Shown: positions 37,949 to 48,276 of the stretch, one piece after another
Layout of the letters: the number at the start of each line of letters is the position of its first letter
How positions within the stretch are numbered: position 1 is the first letter of the stretch
Origin: Entophlyctis helioformis
Taxonomy: Eukaryota; Chytridiomycota; Chytridiomycetes; Chytridiales; Chytriomycetaceae
Length of the DNA stretch: 64,000 bases
Assembly: GCA_025526915.1 (NCBI GenBank)
Contig: JAHLKH010000010.1
Span: 186,001-250,000, forward strand
Direction: 5' to 3'
Translations under genes and position numbers: made by a program
Notes under the pieces: model-generated
What the model saw: only the letters and a program-made list of their open reading frames with translations
The model's database searches: none
What the model was told of the DNA's origin: nothing

Positions 37949-40522
37949 CTACCACCACATTGCTGGAGCCGGAGACGGCCCGACTGGCGACTCGCCATGC
38001 GGTGACGTGGTGGTTGCCGACGATCCGGGAGCAGCGCGCATCGACTCCATGAGGTAGCCACGCCGGCCTCGGCCACCGGTCGCGACGGACGGGGGCAGCA
38101 TCGAGCCCATCGACGTGGATGCGCTGCCGAACCCATTCACTGGATGCGACGTCGACAGACTGCCGTGGAATAAGCCTGCACCGGCCGAGCTGGAGAGGGA
38201 CCCCGAGCTCCCGCCAGAGCCGCTGCCGGGAACGAGGGACGGCGTCGACGCAGACAGCGGCGACAGAGACGTGGCGTTGCTGGCAAAGTTGAGGAGCGGA
38301 TGGTCGGACGGACTGACCGACTTTTGCCATGCCTGCGTAAAGTACTTTTCAATGTCCGTGTTGAGCGGAGCATGGCGGGGATCGGCGACGAGACCCCAGA
38401 GGCGGATCGCGCAATGGCCTGGCCAGCAGACATCATGGCAACGTCGTCGCCGCCGCCGCCCGCGATCGAAATGGAGGTCACCATGCCACTTGTGCCGGCC
38501 GACCCTGCGCTCACGCCGGACATGGCAGAGATTTGGCTGGATGCGCTGATGCTCTGCACCATGAGGCACCCCCGTTGCTGCCGACGCTCGTGACGCTGCT
38601 GCGCTCTTCCATGGGCGAGATGGGGCTTGCCACGTCCATCGACATGGCTCCTGCCTCGGATACTGCGTTTGCGGCGGCAAGCTCGCGCTCGCGTCTCAGC
38701 AACAGGTACCAGAGAGCAGACGCCTGGTCGCATGCATTCGAGTGCACCGACGCCAGAATGGACTGCACGTCAAAGCCGATCGCCTCGAGTTTGGCCGCCA
38801 GAAGCATCTCTCGCTCGTTCCTGCGAGCAGCGGCTCGTCTGGCAGTCCGGCTGCCGGCGTTCCAGGCGGAGGCTGCGGCGCAACATAGTCTGTGTACCAC
38901 GGGTGCCGGAACGCGTCTGCAATGGTGATGCGCTCGCTTGGGTTGATCTTGAGGAACCGAGACACAAAATCCTTGCTCACTGGCCATGCGCGTCTTGGAG
39001 CGTCAGCCGATTGCAGCCACAAAGTGCATGGCACGAGCAGCGGTCTCACCGTCTGACAGAAACTCTGGAAACTCATAGTCCAACTCGGTGATCTTCTTGT
39101 GCGTCATGGCATCGTTGTCCTCGTCAAAGGGCAGGTATCCGCAGAGCAGCGTGTACAGAATGACACCTGTTCAGTGCGCCATTGCAAAGATTAGTCAGTC
39201 AACCGGCCAGCCAGCCAACTGGTAGATCATGCATGACAATTCAAGCCATGTCCGCCATGGCAAGTCCCACTTGCCTAGCGACCAAATGTCTGCCTCCGGG
39301 CCAGAGTACCGCCTTCCAGAGACGATTTCTGCGAATGCAAGAGCAGCCGTGTCAGTCGAGCTGGTGCATGCACAGCCCACCATCCGATACGCGGTCTCAC
39401 CAGGAGAAGCATATGCAGACGATCCGCAGTATGTATCGAGCAGCTTGGTGTTCTCATAGTCGCGCGTGAACCCAAAGTCGATCAGCTTGACATGCAGATC
39501 ATCTGTCAACAGAATGTTTTCCAGTTTCAAGTCGCTGCGATCGGGTTCACCCCGCCAAACACACATGTCAGCGCGTCAGCCGCAGCTCCCAGTTTCCAGG
39601 GACAGAGGCTGTCCAAGACAGGCAACAGGCAGGCAGAAGGCACACGCCGCTCACCGATGCACAAAGTTCTTTTCGTGGCACTGGGCCACGGCGTCCATGA
39701 TCTGGCCAAAGATGCGACGGCATTCCGGCAGCTGGTCATCGAGACGGCCGTGCTTGACGATATAGTCGAATGCCTCGCCGCCGTTGCAGAACTCCATGAC
39801 CATGTAGATCCGGCTCTCGGTGCACAGCACCTCGTACAGCTGCGCAATGTTTGGGTGCCGCATCTGCCGCCAGGCTTCAATCTGTGAGCATGGCATGGCA
39901 TGGCATGCATGGCGGGTGAGTGGTCTGCAAGACGATCAAGGCGTGGCCGGCCCCTCGGGCTCACCTCTCGGACAAGGGCCGGAGCATGAATCTTGTCGAC
40001 AATCTTGACCGCCACCTGGTGGCCCGTCAGCTTGTGGCGGCCGAGCTTGACCTTGCCGAACGTGCCTGCACAGGCCGACGCCGACACCAACGCCGACAGA
40101 TGGGCAAGGGGCAATCAGTGTCCGAAAGCGGGCCAGCGAGCGAGCAGCCCGGCCAGCGGTACCTTCGCCAATGGTCTTGCCGAGGGTGTAGTTGCCCACG
40201 AGCGGCACCGAGGTCGACTGCAGAAAGTTGAGCAGGTCGTTCTGCTGCGACACCGACAGCTGTTGGCCATACGGATGTGCCGCATGCGAGTGTGTGAGTG
40301 TGCGTCAGTGTGCCAGCTCCACCGACACGGAAGCCGCAGCCACGAGCCAGACGGGCGACGGCAAGCGTGTGCGACCGAGGCGGCAGGCGAGAGCCGGCGG
40401 GCCGTCTGTCTGTCTGCACACGGCCGTGGCTCTGCTGCTGTCTGCCAGGCATCTGCTAGAGGGCATCTGCTGCCAGGCGCTGCCAGCCCGCCACAAGGCC
40501 GTACCTTTCGCCGAGCAGACAT
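37949..40522 (-). CDS. CAMK/AMPK-related Ser/Thr protein kinase with UBA-like domain
   Basis: About eleven exons (40522-40505, 40259-40163, 40065-39965, 39881-39655, 39534-39401, 39328-39275, 39166-39050, 38979-38898, 38820-about 38634, 38553-38515, 38332-37949) give roughly 479 residues. Kinase signatures are YTLGKTIGEG/TFGKVKLG, HQVAVKIVDK, NFVHRDLKLENILL, VKLIDFGFTRDYE, YCGSSAYASPEIVSG and DIWSLGVILYTLLCGYLPF. A UBA-like segment follows directly (AAKLEAIGFDVQSILASVHS), as in MARK/SIK/SNRK-type kinases. The rest is Ser/Gly-rich. The intron at 39167-39274 begins with GC (CTAG|GCAAGT). The donor closing exon 9 has alternatives. Apparent frame changes in the tail are explained by in-phase introns. 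Confidence 0.85.
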
Positions 40523-40938
40523 TATTCAGAATGGTGATGGAAAGACGGGCCCGGTTCTCATACCATTACCCCTGGTGGAATTGCTGTGATTGGCCGATCC
40601 TGGTGGGATCGCTGTGATTGGTCGATCTAGAGAGCCCTTGCGCAGTGCTGACACTGCGCGATGCGAGCACAGCAACGGCAGTGGTGCAGGTAGCAGCGCC
40701 TGCTGTCTCGCTGGGCGGTGCGTGTGTGTCCTCCATGAATAAAGAGGGGCGAATGCATAGTCATGTGCAACGCTCTCTCTCTCTCTGAGGAGCATGCCAT
40801 TCCACACACACACAGACCAGTGCTCCATTCATTGCCGCCAAACAATCAGAGCATGCCAATGCAAACAAACACCAGATCGCGACTTGCCACGACACACAAC
40901 AACACGCAACAAAAAACCAACAAGCACGCCCAACACAC
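40523..40938. other. Divergent intergenic region (kinase / XPG-Fanzor gene)
   Basis: About 415 bp. Besides the duplicated CCAAT boxes it has a CTCTCTCTCTCT tract at about 40772-40784 that may act as the core promoter of the plus-strand gene. No terminal inverted repeat or duplicated target site was recognised. Confidence 0.4.
40588..40621 (-). promoter_or_regulatory. Duplicated CCAAT boxes upstream of the AMPK-related kinase
   Basis: Two copies of GCTGTGATTGG[C/T]CGATC, 28 bp apart, each carry CCAAT on the minus strand, 66-100 bp upstream of the kinase ATG. This is a typical spacing for NF-Y/HAP sites. Confidence 0.45.
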
Positions 40939-43900
40939 ATGGGAGTCGTCGGCGCGACTCCTCCCATCGACAAAGCAGGTGGTAGCAAAACCTTTGATCC
41001 CACAAACCCTCTCTCGGGTGCAATTCAGGTCGTGGTACAGCCCCATCAAACACTGCAGCAGCACAACACAGAGCGTCCGCCCATCCAGTGTGTTGTGCAT
41101 GTGGACGTTCTCAGTCTTTTTGCCGGCGATATCTACAAAGCAGCACCAATACTGCTGGCACAGCCAGAGGAAAACTGGACGCCGACACTCGAGCCGCTCA
41201 TTGCCAGCCTCGCAGCATCGATTGGAAAGCTCCACACAGTCCGGCTCCATGTCGATGGCTTGCTTCTCAACACCAATATCAAGGCTGTCCGCACTGAGCG
41301 GGCACGGGTAAATTTGGAAGCAGCATTGTCGATCCAGACAATGGTGGCCAAGCGAAAAGCAGACCAGAAAGGCAACAGGCTCACAAAGTATGCCACTTGC
41401 TGCTGTTGATTTGCATACCGTGCTGACTGAGTGCCCTTCCAGGGACGAGATCCAGTCACTCCAGTGGGCGTTTCCATTGACATGCGAGCGTAAGGCGGCA
41501 ATCTGTGGGGCCATTGGGGGTCTTCTTGGATACTTTGGGGAAGGGTCATCTGTGTGCCTTTGCAAGAATGAGGCGGATGTTTGCATTGCATGCCGTGTGC
41601 GCGAAGCAAGGTTGGTTGGTCTTCTGCATGCCTCTCCAATCCATGGCTCACGCGCCTTTCTTGACAGCAATGTGCCGGTCGTCGTCATCAGTGGTGATAC
41701 CGACCTTATCTTTCATTGTGCCGGCTATTGCCCTGTCCTGCTGCTGCAAATGCGCGGCAGACAGATTGCGCGGATGAGATCGTACAACCACCCAGGTGTA
41801 GCATCTATTGCAGCCACCTTTGACTTGCCAGACATTCTTGACATCTGCCGGTTGGTGGCAGCCGCAGCGAGAAATGACTATTTTCATTGTGATGAGATTG
41901 GTATGTTGGCTTGCCTGCTTTGCAATTTTGGATGCCATGCGCTGCGACCTTGACTTACTCGTGATGCTGCAATGATGACTTGCAAGGGATCGTCACGGCT
42001 GCAAAGTGCATTATGGCATGCATTCGTTTTGAGGCAACATGGGCAGGGATCACTGTCGCAGAGTTCTGTCAACGCCTGCAAGACCCAGACCTTGCCAGGA
42101 TGTTTGTGGACGTCTTCAAGGCCTCATTTATGTTGCAGATGTACAAGATCGGCGGCAAGCCTCTTGCTCAATCGTTCAGCAATGCCTTCGCGGTGTTTCT
42201 CGACCGTGACGAAACTGGAGCGGATATTGGAGAGTTCACAGACCAAAGCCATGGTTGTTATGGGGATGTTTTTGCTCAAATGATACCGCTGTAAGTCTTG
42301 CTTTGGATGCACTTGGACAGCATGGCATTGACATGAATGCATGCATCATCCAATGGCAACAGCAGGACTGCCAACAGGACCGCCTCGGCTCGAAAAAAGT
42401 AGGCGTGCTTGTGATCTCTGGAGGATTCTCATGGCACTGACTCTGATGGATGCCACTGGCAGATCTGCCTCTGCATGCACGGCCCGCAGTGGCTGCTGCT
42501 TGAGCCACACGGCACAGCAGCTGAAGGGCAATGCCAGTGGTGCGGTTTGGCACCTTACACGGGATGAAGTCATGGTGCTCGCCAAGCACATTGTCAACAC
42601 AAGGCAACTGGACGACGTTTTTGTCATGCTCAACGGCTGCCGTGTCGTGTTTAGCTGCGTTCTCCGATGCACGGCAGACCTCCTCGCCGACGACATTCTC
42701 AACGGCCGCGACATCCTTGCTGATATCTGCGAGAATGCAAGCAAGCAGCTGCTGCAGGCTGTGCATGATGGCGTATCGCTAAAGAAGCATATGCAAGGCT
42801 CAGCCCGGCTGGCAAGATTCTTTATCACGCATTGGTGGGTTTTGCGAGGCTTGGATGCGTGTCTTGGCTGTCCACTGCATGCTGTTGCTGATCTTCAATG
42901 CTGTCGGCTTGATCCATTACTGGGCGAGCAGAATGTGATAGCAAGACTGAATGATCGGCTCAAGAAGTATCCAGGCTTGAAATGCGCATCTTTCAGGCGT
43001 CTAAAAACGCCAGGTTTGCTCTGCACGGGTTGACACAGTGTGGCATTGTGTATTCACCACTGATCACGGCATTTGTGTGACAGTCAAGGGTAAAAAGACA
43101 AAGCAGCCGCTCAGAAGGAGCACACGGATTGCGACCCCAGAAGCTGTTGCCGATATTCGCGAAACGGCCATAAAGACGCTCAATGCCCTGACAAACCCAA
43201 CGGATGTCAGGCATGCTGATTTCCAAGTGTCAGAATTTGGCGAGTGTTATGACCAAGCAAAGCAGATGCTGCAGTCGATTATCAATCGAGTACCGGTGCG
43301 TCTTTGCATTTGCTGGCTCTGTTTGCATGTGACGGCTTGCTGCGATTGCTTATCCTTCCACTCAACAGGCCGTCAAGCCACCAAAACCATGCAAGATGCT
43401 GCTGCCACCTCGAGCTGCAGATGATAGAGGCACAGATTGCGACAAGGTCTTTCACATTGGTGTGCTTCAAGACACAAGGACGACTGTGAGTTGAACTGCA
43501 GGCTTGTGATTGCGAGCATCTTGTGCACATTCAAGATGCATGCCTAACATTGCATTCAACCACGGCAGGATCCATACCTGGTCACACCGGCCATGCAGGC
43601 TGAGCGTGATAAGGAGCGAGCTGAGCAAGCTGAGAAGGCCAAGACCAAGAAGTTCATCCAGGAGCACAAGAAGGATGCAAGCAGGCAAGCCCGCCAGGCT
43701 CCATCTGAGGACGAGACACGGGCGTAAGTGGCATATGGCATGGCATGTGCCTTGAGTGTGTGTGCTGACCGGTGCGTTCTTTGACAGATATGAGCGTGGT
43801 GAAAGATCGGCGATAGAGCAGATGCTTGAAAAGATCCACCGCATGATGGCATTGCCAGTCATGACAGCTGCTGCTGCCATCCATGGCAATGAGGCAAGGC

Positions 43901-46900
43901 CAGTGGAGAGCACATACGATCGCCCTGAGCAGATTGTCAAAATGGAGGTATGAGTTTGGATTGCCATGTTGCTCTGCATGTCTGGCTTTGTGTATGTTGA
44001 CTTGTGCTACATACAGGAAATGCTCTCTGGAGATCCAATGCTTGCAAAGTATTTTGGACGCCAGGCCAAGACGGCGCCGGCAACACAGACCCGCGGTTCG
44101 GTCTCAGAAAGCATCTTCAATGGCGTGTACCGATACACGGCCGACGTGCGGCGTGCATGCATCACTATGATCGGCGCCATCGTCGAAGAGCTCGTCGCAC
44201 TCGACCCAGATGCACCGCTGCCACTCAAGTTCTGCGTCATGGAGGCCAGGAGGAATGGTGAGATGGAATATGTGTATATTGATCCTGATCACTTCAAGGA
44301 CGAGAGCGCGTGGCTCTACGCCGCTGGATGCGTCCTCAGATGGCCAGTTAATGCCCGGCGCATGTACGGCGAAGGCCCGCTCTGCAGCAACACCGACATT
44401 GCTCACTATGGCGACTTGGTGAGACTTGAGGCGGGCACGATGGTCAAGATCTGCACCTTCACCGACGACACAGCACCAGCAGTAGCAACAGCAGCACCAG
44501 CAGCAGTAGCCGCCGCATCCAGCAGCACCGATGCCCAACCACCAGCCATCGAGCCACCACTACAACGGGCAGTACCATCGGCAAATGATCTGCTCAAGGT
44601 GCTCACAAACAGCACCTCTAGTGGCGAGGGAGCCGTCACGATGCTTCTGCGATACCTGGGCTACATTCTCACCGGTCAGGAGTCGGTCATGCCGCGGGCG
44701 ACAAAGCATGTGGCCCACTCGTGGATTGTGACCATCATGCAGATGATCATCAACCGCGAATGGACACAGCAGATGATCCGGGACAGCATGACCAAGATGC
44801 GGGCTGGTGTGGCGCGGGCAGCCAAGATGGACGCGACGCAGGCCGGCTCATTGCTGTCAGCCATTGTGCACATGGACGCAAGCACGATGCATGCCGTTTT
44901 GCCTGGCAGGCTTGACGACAGTTTGTGTGCAGCTGCTCGGAACGACATCTACAAAAATCTGGCACGGGGCATCTGTGGCATGCTTGCTGTGCACTTCATG
45001 ACCCACCAGTCGATGCTCATTGACTGGGCAATCCACCGACTGATTCCTGGTATATCTGCTGACAAGGCAGCGGAATTTGCCAAGGCAATGGATACAGCCA
45101 CCGGGGACGCCACGTCTGGCACGCCACTGTCAACCAGACAAGACGGACGCGTTGTCGAGATCCCACAAGCACTGCACAGGCTCACGGCGGTCGTGCGCAA
45201 CAAGTCGCTGTCAGAGGCCGGCAAGTTCAAGCAGTTGTGTGATCTCGCAGGCTCATCCCTCAAGTTGTGTCCGCAGCCTGCAGGCCGCGATCCGTTTGTC
45301 CTCATCACTGAGACCACCCTCTTTTGGGCGGTGATGAGGACAAAGGATGAGCGCATCCGTGGCAATCAGGATCCTGCTTTGCAGGCATTGAGACTACAGC
45401 TTCTGGCTGCACTTGGTTGGTCGCACTGCCTGTATATGCCATGTGTACACAATTTGATGCTGACACTGCACTTTTCTCCAAGGCTACAAAGATGCCAAGT
45501 CAGCTCTTAAGTTCCCAAAAGGATATCCAAGATGCATTCAGCGCAAGTCGCGAGGTTTCCATCTTTGACATCCTTCTCCCAGGTCTCCGCCCCAAGAAAG
45601 GTCGCTTCCAGACACCTTCAGAAGCCAAAGATGAGATGGACGCGGTTGCCAAGGCCACAGCCAAGGCGACGCGAGAGGCCGATGAGCAGGGTCTGGATGG
45701 CAAGGAGCGCGAGAAGCATATCAAGGCTGCGATTGATGCTGTGCGTCCAGCAAGACCAGCCAAGGCGATCCTACTTGGCAGCATCATGACGATGGATACA
45801 GCATCTACCAGCTGGCTCTGGACTGCCGCACAAACCGTCCAGAGTCACCTTGCTGTATGTGGCGTGCTTGAATGCGATGGTGCACACATTGATTCTGACT
45901 GCCGCCTTGATCTGCAGATCCCAACGCGGCGTCTTCAGGCGAGCAGCCGTGGCTTGTTGACGAGGCTGATGGCGAGCCCGATTACATTAACGGCGAATGT
46001 GAGTTGCTGTGCCAATCCAGACGCGCACTTGTTGTCCACACCGACTGACATGCCATCCACAGCCGCCAATCCAGCCAACCCGTCAGCCGCCAAGCCATAC
46101 ACGCCCAATCCTGTAAGTCACTTGCATGCTAAACTCGCGCATTGGTGCACATGCATTGCACATTCCTCACTCATGCCATGGCATGACAGGGCAAGCGCAA
46201 CTTTTATGCCTCACAGCGACTGCGCACATCATCAAGCCAACAATCTGTTCACTGACCAAGGCTACCAGACTGTTCGCGTTGTCAGCTTTGATTGGGGCCA
46301 GCGGTACCTGTATGGCGCGTCCAGCATCTTGGTTGATCTCAGAGACTTTTCGTATAAGCTCGAGTCCAACTACGTGCTCTCCTCTGGCATGTTTCAAGCT
46401 GAGCGTGACTTTCAGCGGTGGTATGCATGCAATGACTCTGCCACGTGCACTCTTGACCAGATCAACTCACAGTGCCTGCCTCCTGTGCCAGGCTCAACAA
46501 TCGATATGCCAAGGCAGCCGACATCCAGGCGGCCATTGCATTCAAGACAGCAAAGCATGCCGATCCAAACGTCAAGCCTGGCGAGAGAGCCTTTTGGGAT
46601 CTGCGCTGCCATGCGTACTGCACGCCATTCCTGAATGCACGGGTACGTTTTCTCTGTTCTGGATGCCCATTGACATGGCCGCCATGCTGCTTGATCGCCT
46701 GCTGATTGCACTGGATGGCATGGCATGCATGGCATTCCACAGAAGGTCAAGGCCAAGCGGTTCACCATGCGCAGCAGCCGCACGTCTGATCGCGGAAACG
46801 CTCTTGAGGGCATCATGAAGCTGGCAGGATCGACCACTGGAGAGCGCGCATCTGCTGCGTCTCAAGGCCGCTGTGACAAGCCAACAGAGAAGGACATTCC

Positions 46901-47059
46901 CGTTGTCTGGGCATTTGGCATCGACTTTACAGGTCAAGGTGGCCGGCACGCTGTGTTTGAGAAGTTTCTCATCAGGCATCTGCGGTCGTCTGGATATGCC
47001 TATGTGCGTCTGATGCCACGCTGTCCATCCATCCATCCATCCATCTGTGCACCCAACTG

Positions 47060-47090
<31 letters not shown>

Positions 47091-47542
47091 TCTACCGCTG
47101 CAACGAGAACCTGACCAGCCAGATGTGCCCGCAGTGCAAGCAGCGGATCCCATACGAGAACCGCACCAACCTGCGACGCTACGAGTGCATACCATGCACG
47201 ACCGTCTACCACCGCGATGTGCTTGGAGCCACCAACATCGGGATGGTTGCACTGTGGCATCTGCTCTTTGGACACCGGCCGCTCTACTTGACACACACCA
47301 AAACCGACAGCAATCCAGCCACGACAGAGTACCTTGCAGACATCGAGGCAATGCATCTATTCATCCAGGATCGTGCACGAAATGCTCCGTCTGTTGTCCC
47401 ACAGCCTCAAACGCGGAAACACTTCAAGTCGCATGTGGCCTCATGGGACCAGATCAGCCTGCCGTCCTGTGGCGTTCAAGACACGGTCCATCCGTCGCCA
47501 GCTGCGACCAACACGCAGACAGCCTGCCCTCAAGTCACTTGA
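40939..47542 (+). CDS. XPG/FEN1-like flap nuclease fused to a TnpB/Fanzor-type RuvC nuclease
   Basis: Eighteen exons (40939-41387, 41443-41610, 41668-41900, 41987-42290, 42463-42838, 42997-43047, 43107-43295, 43369-43485, 43569-43723, 43788-43947, 44017-45415, 45532-45858, 45918-45998, 46063-46112, 46269-46420, 46492-46642, 46743-47003, 47090-47542) join in phase to about 1,691 residues. N-terminal third: VVHVDVLSLF, TVRLHVDGLL with TERAR, CLCKNEADVCIA, VVVISGDTDLIFHC and ARNDYF...GIVTAAK, the acidic sites and H2TH turn of XPG/FEN1 nucleases. A long helical middle is unrecognised. C-terminus: RuvC-I VVSFDWGQRYLYGA, RuvC-II CNENLTSQMCPQC, zinc ribbon CPQC...CIPC, RuvC-III YHRDVLGATNI. If the 43048-43106 intron is not spliced, the XPG part ends alone at 43080 (537 residues). 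Confidence 0.7.
47061..47088 (+). repeat. (CA)n microsatellite forming an intron acceptor
   Basis: A run of about 14 CA units ends in CAG, which is the acceptor before the last Fanzor exon. Confidence 0.85.
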
Positions 47543-47583
47543 CCTGCATCCCACACAGTGACTTGTTTGACTACCAACTTTGA

Positions 47584-47797
47584 ATCGGGGCACCTCCCGA
47601 TCGACCTAACGGGTCACTTTTTCTAACGATAAAGGTAGACCTCGTTGGATGTGCCTCGCCCGCCTGTCGTCGCATGCTCGTTGCTGACTCGAACCTTCCA
47701 TCGTGTGATATGCGGGCTTCTTTCGACGCCTCTTGCGACGAATTTAATTCCAAAATCCTTGGTAATTGTATGAATATCGGGCCTTATAAAGGATTTT
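47584..47797 (+). ncRNA. Candidate structured RNA (Fanzor omega/guide-RNA-like) downstream of the nuclease gene
   Basis: An AT-rich, non-coding stretch begins about 40 bp after the Fanzor stop codon and stands out from the GC-rich surroundings. Four inverted repeats are visible. ATCGGG/CCCGAT (6 bp, loop 6) lies at 47584-47601, and GACC/GGTC at 47603-47615. TTCGaCGC/GCGaCGAA (8 positions with one A-A mismatch, 5-nt loop) lies at 47722-47742. AAAATCCTT/AAGGATTTT (9 bp, 28-nt loop) lies at 47752-47797. In known Fanzor and TnpB systems the guide RNA is made from just this position, 3' of the nuclease gene. Expression and exact ends are unknown; these could also be 3'-UTR or terminator structures. 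Confidence 0.35.
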
Positions 47798-48276
47798 TCA
47801 GATTTCGGGCTTGAAAGTCACGCTCAAGTCAGCCAGCAAGTGCGACACGACCGCCATCTACACTGCGTTCCAGATGCAGAAGACAGCCATATCAGTCGCG
47901 ATAGTCTTTGACCCGCGACGCTCGGAAGGTGCACGGTTCCTGATGCTCTCTCGTGTGGGCGGCATCTCCACTGCTCGCCGTGCCATCAACGCCAACCTGC
48001 TCGACCCACCCACCCGTTTGGCGACGGTTCATGCTGCATCATGTGCGGCGAGGATCTGGAAGCACGCTGGAGATTGCGCACTTTGCGCTCGAGTGCACAG
48101 ACGAGCGGATGTGGCTATTCGTACGGCGCATGGGCAGTGTGACTTGGACGCATGGCTTGCAGCTGCACGCGCCATTGCAACAAACGAGAATGTGGGACAA
48201 CCACAAACACGGCATGCTGTAGTGCACAGCGTGCTTTGTGGAGATCAAGACCCATACTCATGCCAGGCTCCTTCAT
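47798..48276 (+). other. Open frame without an ATG start downstream of the Fanzor locus
   Basis: A plus-strand frame stays open from 47811 to 48380 (about 190 codons) but begins without ATG; the first internal ATG is at about 47872. Its composition (KTAISVAIVFDPRRSEGARF, then STARRAINANLL) is not obviously a shadow of another gene, yet no family is recognised. It could be a remnant of the element, an exon of an unrecognised gene, or chance. A TATAAAG lies just upstream at about 47784. Confidence 0.2.

Follow-up and report, generated by a model that had tools for sequence, protein, structure and literature searches.

A 64,000-nucleotide stretch of Entophlyctis helioformis DNA (contig 10, positions 186001-250000; hereafter the window) raises the question of whether this chytrid has joined a Fanzor, a TnpB-type RuvC nuclease, to a second nuclease in one protein. 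The initial annotation had read window positions 40939-47542 as an 18-exon gene that fuses an XPG/FEN1-like flap nuclease to a Fanzor. We searched the whole genome (29.6 Mb, 482 contigs) and found that the region is a single copy (40551-47783, 7,233 bp, plus strand) of a terminal-inverted-repeat transposon that is present in many copies genome-wide. The proposed fusion stands insofar as XPG-like and Fanzor parts lie in a single coding unit, in the same order and on the same strand, in many copies; the window copy is broken, and the gene is a transposon gene. The copies themselves show both modules in a fixed order and at a fixed spacing, transposon ends that they have in common and, at the first junction, a conserved splice phase. 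We think it likely that this is a one-gene transposon family encoding a single protein of ~1,750-1,800 residues, in which a domain like the 5'-nucleases of the XPG/EXO1 superfamily stands at the N terminus and a Fanzor at the C terminus, with a long middle region between them; the protein would act by a guide-directed mechanism.

Two modules in one element

At least 145 genome places carry the N-terminal nuclease exon and at least 186 carry the Fanzor C terminus. The XPG places come from 145 of 150 matches, five secondary fragments (C122, C348, C298, C427 and C357) having been dropped; the Fanzor places were merged from 116 of 150 listed matches (of 221 in all), these 116 being mostly one exon per element, and from 150 further ones. 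Among the matches listed, 87 of the 145 XPG places were followed by a same-strand Fanzor place no more than 10 kb downstream (median 5,462 bp); for none was there a same-strand one upstream, and for one there was one on the opposite strand. The copy number, together with a layout kept in four diverged subfamilies, excludes chance. Among the same listed matches, 58 of the 145 XPG places and 99 of the 186 Fanzor places are unpaired, which counts against the fusion reading. Contig ends and incomplete match lists account for part of these (for 23 of the 99 unpaired Fanzor places, the contig starts no more than 6.5 kb away), and Fanzor-only or XPG-only members may exist.

Gene layout and decay of the window copy

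The gene parts of the window copy are as follows (window coordinates).

40939..41387, plus strand: exon 1, in which the XPG-like domain begins; Asp codons at 41104 and 41254; in public protein P0001
41443..41610, plus strand: exon 2a, XPG-like domain; Glu 41570 and Asp 41576; rates of nonsynonymous (dN) and synonymous (dS) change 0.20 and 0.48 against subfamily B
41611..41667, plus strand: 57-nt intron within exon 2 of our first path; removed by splicing in P0001 and P0002
41668..41900, plus strand: exon 2b, core of the XPG-like domain; Asp 41696, 41702 and 41876; at least 145 related places used
41987..42290, plus strand: exon 3, closing the XPG-like domain with a helix-turn-helix-like segment
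42363..42398, plus strand: exon 4, short junction exon; one open frame over exons 3-4-5 in four subfamilies
42463..43013, plus strand: exon 5 region; 5a 42463-42834, intron 42835-42931, 5b 42932-43013; window frame break within 5a
43084-43295, 43369-43485, 43569-43723 and 43788-43947, plus strand: exons 6-9, charged linker
44017..45415, plus strand: exon 10, middle region without a family match; 30-36% identity to B, C and D copies, dN below dS
45483..45854, plus strand: a single exon in relatives, where it holds the TDG motif, comprising exons 11-12 of our path and a false intron at 45555-45582; frame broken in the window
45918-45998, 46063-46112 and 46190-46420, plus strand: exons 13-15, leading into RuvC; catalytic Asp 46290-46292; frame broken
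46492-46642 and 46743-47003, plus strand: exons 16-17, RuvC
47090..47542, plus strand: exon 18; Glu 47105-47107, zinc ribbon, Asp 47216-47218 and stop; Cas12f1-like_TNB match at E = 9.2e-10

The proposed start (ATG at 40939) and stop (TGA at 47540-47542) hold, and an 18-exon path with GT-AG borders does run open between them. The path that we obtained has 1,803 codons including the stop rather than the 1,692 first reported, so phase-clean paths are evidently not unique. Such a path cannot be the gene structure of the family, because the window copy contains frame breaks that related copies lack. Our path overlooked introns at 41611-41667 (exon 2) and 42835-42931 (exon 5); subfamily C has stop codons at the place homologous to the former. 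Its 28-nt 'intron 11' belongs to the coding sequence of L065, L066 and L068, and the frame that it uses in exons 13-14 differs from that of relatives.

Exon 5 of the window lacks one base that is present in 13 of 13 other distinct copies, and the exon 11/12 region and exon 15 carry frame-breaking indels relative to five of five full-length copies. We read the window copy as a decayed family member, and sequencing or assembly error may be the source of its frame breaks.

Comparisons between subfamilies indicate that the protein was under selection as they diverged, since dN is below dS in exons 1-3, 5a and 10 (exon 15 is not part of these results). Exon 2b gave a dN of 0.15 and a dS of 0.92 between A and B; exon 5a of the window gave dN/dS values of 0.12/0.29 against L068, 0.55/1.94 against L069, 0.42/2.24 against L084 and 0.42/2.20 against L085. 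Exon 8 is near neutral against subfamily B (0.21/0.24), and only part of exons 6-9 was located in each relative. In L068 and L069, introns 12-16 are 86-98% identical to those of the window, exons 16-18 are 87-97% identical and exons 1-10 are mostly 46-82% identical, a mosaic that suggests exchange or homogenization of the 3' half.

One fused protein or two

The initial annotation had proposed a test at 43,080, where a stop might separate two transcripts. The critical junction lies instead between exon 4 and exon 5 (42399-42462), the place at which one publicly annotated copy has its protein terminate: model P0001, from the copy on C18, stops just after exon 4 at 397 residues. We compared this junction in subfamilies A (window), B (L068), C (L069) and D (L085). 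Exactly one open frame runs through exons 3-4-5 in each, and it is the identical frame in all four. Exon 4 measures 36, 36, 36 and 66 nt in A, B, C and D, and introns 3/4 measure 72/64, 72/64, 99/83 and 65/85 nt, not all multiples of three. Intron 3 of subfamily C starts with GC rather than GT; its intron 4 has a GTATGT donor and a branch-site-like TACTGAC. In subfamily C, the third codon upstream in the exon 5 frame is a stop and the frame offers no ATG for 71 codons; its conserved beginning can therefore be translated only if exon 4 is spliced to it. Exon 3 before the junction and exon 5a after it both have dN below dS. Further downstream, the phase could be followed by eye from exon 5 to exon 8 in C and D and partly in B, a damaged copy, and from exon 10 to RuvC in L066; these checks covered some junctions in some subfamilies.

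Splice sites and phase kept at the first junction in four subfamilies favour one fused protein over two genes, and from the sequence comparison a fusion appears to be the better reading, although retention of intron 4 could also yield a short form. We think it unlikely that the transposon instead holds two neighbouring genes, one for an XPG-like protein of ~400 residues ending after exon 4 and one for a Fanzor starting in or after exon 5. P0001, which ends precisely there, counts against the fusion and for two genes, as do in-frame ATGs upstream of exon 5 in A (four) and B (three), another two codons into the exon in D, and the differing divergence of the two halves. Yet the splice signals coincide in four subfamilies, a common frame is kept across introns that are not all multiples of three, exon 5 of subfamily C cannot begin translation at its conserved start and the gap is merely 64 nt in the window copy. 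A mixed outcome, in which a retained intron 4 gives a short XPG-only protein and a spliced one the long fusion, strikes us as very doubtful. Its splice sites are usable, and with the intron retained the reading frame would run only a few codons to a stop in A, B and C, and ~20 codons in D; the conserved phase, as far as sequence can tell, would show only that the fused form is kept.

The C terminus is a divergent Fanzor nuclease

The RuvC triad first proposed (Asp 46290-46292, Glu 47105-47107 and Asp 47216-47218) and the C-terminal CxxC..CxxC zinc ribbon were both recovered. A profile search of the C-terminal half bore out a Fanzor/TnpB identity: the last exons matched Pfam Cas12f1-like_TNB at E = 9.2e-10 (39 bits against a cut-off of 26.3), and NCBIfam TnpB models gave E values of 4.5e-5 and 3.5e-4, both far below their cut-offs. 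Glu 47105-47107 stands in the order E-N-L-T-S immediately before the zinc ribbon, and is a candidate for the alternative RuvC glutamate of Fanzor1. The path through the window conforms to D-X(125,275)-[TS][TS]-X-X-C4 zinc finger-X(5,50)-RD, with a D-to-TS spacing of 188; this is given as a Fanzor/TnpB motif in PMC3627910. A TDG motif in the WED domain is described as a Fanzor1 feature in PMC10711439, and SIMTDGYSIYQLALD, which carries this motif, occurs ahead of RuvC in L065, L066 and L067; the window copy is frame-broken at that place. A 989-residue query containing the RuvC region drew 624 candidates from the protein database, none at E ≤ 0.01, and a PDB sequence search with RuvC returned nothing relevant. 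From these motifs and profiles we conclude that the C terminus is a Fanzor/TnpB nuclease, otherwise divergent.

The middle stretch, approximately residues 415-1470 of our path (exon 4 to RuvC), has no Pfam match over cut-off, nor has exon 10 of subfamily D (P0004). A PDB sequence search with exon 10 gave nothing relevant; one methyltransferase chain appeared at E = 0.13. The sole Pfam match across exons 5-9, exon 10 (D) and exons 11-15 (L066) was DUF6033 (0.0075, in a charged stretch), which is below cut-off and was taken as chance. Part of the middle region is probably the Fanzor recognition lobe.

The N-terminal domain resembles XPG-superfamily nucleases

The XPG-like motifs reported for the N-terminal part are present. 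In an alignment of six sequences from the four subfamilies, 38-67% identical to the window's, seven acidic residues (D56, D106, E193, D195, D235, D237 and D295) are invariant and ordered as in FEN1, EXO1 and XPG; they are the putative active-site residues. Once the 57-nt intron was removed, XPG_I_2 matched in three subfamilies, at 1.9e-4 (P0002), 0.0038 (P0001) and 0.0084 (subfamily D); taking exon 2 as one exon, with this intron unspliced, had hidden the signal. All of these matches are below cut-off, and XPG_I was not listed. The XPG/FEN1 identity first proposed therefore holds at the level of a superfamily-like domain, with a sub-threshold profile of the Asteroid type, XPG_I_2, the family of ASTE1, as the closest.

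In a global profile alignment with RAD2 and EXO1 of the host, RAD2 of yeast and the human proteins XPG and EXO1, the motifs came into register and the score was 17.9. None of 600 column shuffles scored above 12.4, and two decoy exons scored 2.0 and 10.4 (rows of the decoy run that depend on window exon 2a, its A-B total among them, were set aside). When a structure model of the domain was searched with Foldseek, nine of the 12 top chains looked like 5'-nuclease-superfamily proteins, several of them repeats of one protein; the count is six of 12 without three plastid exonuclease 1 chains.

A number of results pull the other way. The best XPG_I_2 score is 21.5 bits against a Pfam cut-off of 24.2, longer spliced versions gave only 0.081 (D) and 0.2 (window), subfamily C gave no XPG_I_2 match, and Pfam scans of the N-terminal sequence before splicing gave no XPG match. 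When the genome was searched with XPG_I and XPG_I_2, the matches fell on other loci, RAD2- and EXO1-like ones among them, and on no copy of the element. The local profile score was equalled in 2 of 200 and 2 of 300 shuffles (these controls included one outlier of 133.5), and HHalign's own probability is 4-6%. The structure model is of low confidence (predicted local distance difference test score, pLDDT, of 41.2); no Foldseek match reaches E 0.001, and the superfamily matches are at E 0.15 or worse. A PDB sequence search with the N-terminal alignment, in which the unspliced intron residues were still included, gave no match. Taken together, these data make the N-terminal domain a probable, not a proven, remote member of the XPG/EXO1/FEN1 5'-nuclease superfamily.

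Look-alike domain or dead relic

Could the N-terminal domain be an unrelated fold with look-alike motifs, or a catalytically dead DNA-binding domain? The sub-threshold Pfam scores, the empty PDB sequence search, the low-confidence model, the low HHalign probability and the local score matched by shuffles would all fit such a reading. We nevertheless regard it as very unlikely, as all seven acidic positions are invariant, the ordered global match to XPG/EXO1 exceeds all 600 shuffles, the best Foldseek matches fall within the superfamily and dN is far below dS in exon 2b. Another reading grants the homology and denies the function: a single ancestral insertion was passively copied, and the fused protein does nothing. 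The reading frame is interrupted in L065-L068 as well as in the window copy, and the few differences in Fanzor exons 16-18 include no consistent excess of silent changes; both observations favour a relic over a working protein. In exons 1-3, 5a and 10, however, dN stays below dS when subfamilies are compared, so the protein was under selection as they diverged, and a dead relic seems distinctly unlikely to us.

A candidate guide scaffold and a possible mechanism

47543..47783, plus strand: conserved 3' non-coding end, a candidate guide-RNA scaffold

Across 30 distinct copies, the 3' non-coding end has a mean identity of 0.895, and an ATCGGG..CCCGAT hairpin is kept in 29 of the 30. Its consensus fold scored -26.6; 60 column shuffles gave -18.7 +/- 3.5, with a minimum of -26.9. 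In a separate folding, two short fragments were set aside because they aligned badly. Nearby introns are about as conserved, so conservation lends a scaffold role weak support; we treat this end as a candidate guide-RNA scaffold.

If the family does encode a guided fusion, the Fanzor half would use a guide derived from the 3' end of the element and its flanking DNA to cut empty or allelic sites, and repair from the element-bearing copy would restore or spread the element. The tethered XPG-like domain could then trim cut ends or displaced flaps and thereby steer repair. ASTE1 is reported to cut 3' overhangs and so limit resection, and the XPG-like domain might accordingly favour end joining instead; the direction of the repair effect cannot be read from sequence. 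Transposition proper would depend on a transposase provided in trans or on an as yet unrecognized activity in the protein.

Element ends, copies and surroundings

40551..47783, plus strand: whole transposon copy, 7,233 bp; boundaries from similarity limits and the shared left end
40551..40570, plus strand: left terminal inverted repeat; 100 genome places with up to 3 mismatches, reversed-pattern control 3
47761..47783, plus strand: right terminal inverted repeat; 170 genome places with up to 3 mismatches, reversed-pattern control 0

Similarity ends exactly at 47783 in 23 of 29 other Fanzor loci and at most 13 nt away in four more; in the last two, it continues through a shared flank in one and the right end is missing from the other. 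The left end, CCGGTTCTCATACC at 40551, is common to many copies, and the right terminal repeat is its imperfect inverse. We paired 81 of the 100 left ends (those with at most one mismatch) with 100 of the 170 right ends. A same-strand right end lay within 17 kb for 41 of the 81, and at a spacing of 7.2-9.8 kb for 28 of the 81. Two-ended copies form size groups near 7.2-7.3, 7.5-8.0 and 8.8-9.1 kb.

Target-site duplications were scored in nine copies. The C7 copy has an exact 11-bp duplication and the C139 copy one of 10/11; the other seven, the window copy included, fall within the range of mismatched pairs, and the flanks of the C60 copy have seven bases in common by eye. That the window copy shows no target duplication counts against the reading preferred here. 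No transposase was recognized in the element. Membership of the Mutator-like element (MULE) transposons, considered because of the 11-bp duplication, was rejected, as the MULE transposase family PF10551 has no match in the genome. It seems decidedly improbable to us that the fused protein is itself the whole mobility machine, its XPG-like and Fanzor nucleases excising or copying the element and making the 11-bp duplications.

Short two-ended copies, with ends 1-2 kb apart, occur at C35:164492-165477, C436:7863-8911 and C199:20583-22748; they are likely internal deletion derivatives, and the first two contain a zinc-ribbon match. In the subfamily D copies on C24 (an element of ~9.0 kb) and C40, the left end lies ~1.7 kb before the first XPG exon found, which indicates that these longer elements hold extra 5' sequence. 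A subterminal repeat with an inverted CCAAT box, CCTGGTGGAATCGCTGTGATTGGTC, occurs in variable number at window positions 40571-40630 and at the left ends of other copies, and is a possible promoter upstream of exon 1.

Directly to the right of the element, window positions 47817-48211 hold a separate high-copy repeat with at least 36 further places at 85-94% identity. The window, C166, C202 and C215 copies have a common right flank that includes this repeat; their left flanks differ where seen. On the minus strand at 39195-40304, open frames with protein-kinase motifs (VGNYTLGKTIGEG; HR and DLK, in separate exons) end ~250 bp short of the element's left end, which suggests that the element inserted ahead of a kinase gene. 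Scans of the window for Rfam families and tRNAs found nothing.

Relation to known systems

The closest counterpart of the C-terminal half is Fanzor1, exemplified by SPu-1-1p (SpuFz1) of Spizellomyces punctatus. The two have in common the D...[TS][TS]xx C4 zinc ribbon...RD motif, a transposon with terminal inverted repeats in which no other gene is recognized and, in relatives of the window copy, the TDG motif. Most Fanzor1s are given as 600-700 residues with a conserved domain layout, an exception being named (PMC11423790); the protein described here has ~1,750-1,800 residues, an XPG-like N terminus and many introns. SPu-1 has a single open frame and putative TA duplications, whereas the E. 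helioformis element has an 11-bp duplication. The nearest precedent that we found for a second nuclease that travels with a Fanzor in one element is the Mariner element PGv-1, which encodes a GIY-YIG nuclease in addition to its Fanzor1 (Bao and Jurka 2013; PMC3627910); there, however, the nucleases are separate proteins, the second has another fold and a Mariner transposase is present.

For the N-terminal half, EXO1, XPG/RAD2 and FEN1 are alike in the order of acidic motifs, the EXO1-like EAD triplet and the DY...GI end; the domain has remote profile similarity only and no PDB sequence match. XPG_I_2/Asteroid (ASTE1) supplies the best relevant Pfam profile, below its curated cut-off. ASTE1 differs in being a stand-alone endonuclease; according to PMC12599495, it is reported to limit resection at breaks by cutting single-stranded 3' overhangs.

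In keeping with the claim that the architecture is new, we found no XPG-Fanzor fusion in the protein searches that reach this length, nor in open-access papers, judged mostly from search listings. The full-length protein was scored against 7,989 protein database candidates, none at E ≤ 0.001. The N-terminal alignment, searched where only short proteins were visible, found three matches, all from E. helioformis. Scans of viral and prokaryote contigs found no relative, and open-access full text yielded nothing pairing Fanzor with XPG or Fanzor with Entophlyctis.

Editing laboratories attempt to combine RNA-guided cutting with repair steering through artificial fusions. Most known Fanzor1s are compact, and a natural Fanzor that carries its own end-processing nuclease would mean that the same kind of joint between RNA-guided cutting and repair steering has arisen in evolution. 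The fusion also opens to experiment a standing question, namely how Fanzors serve the transposons that carry them; an effect of the XPG-like domain on repair at the donor site would point to a role in copy retention or homing.

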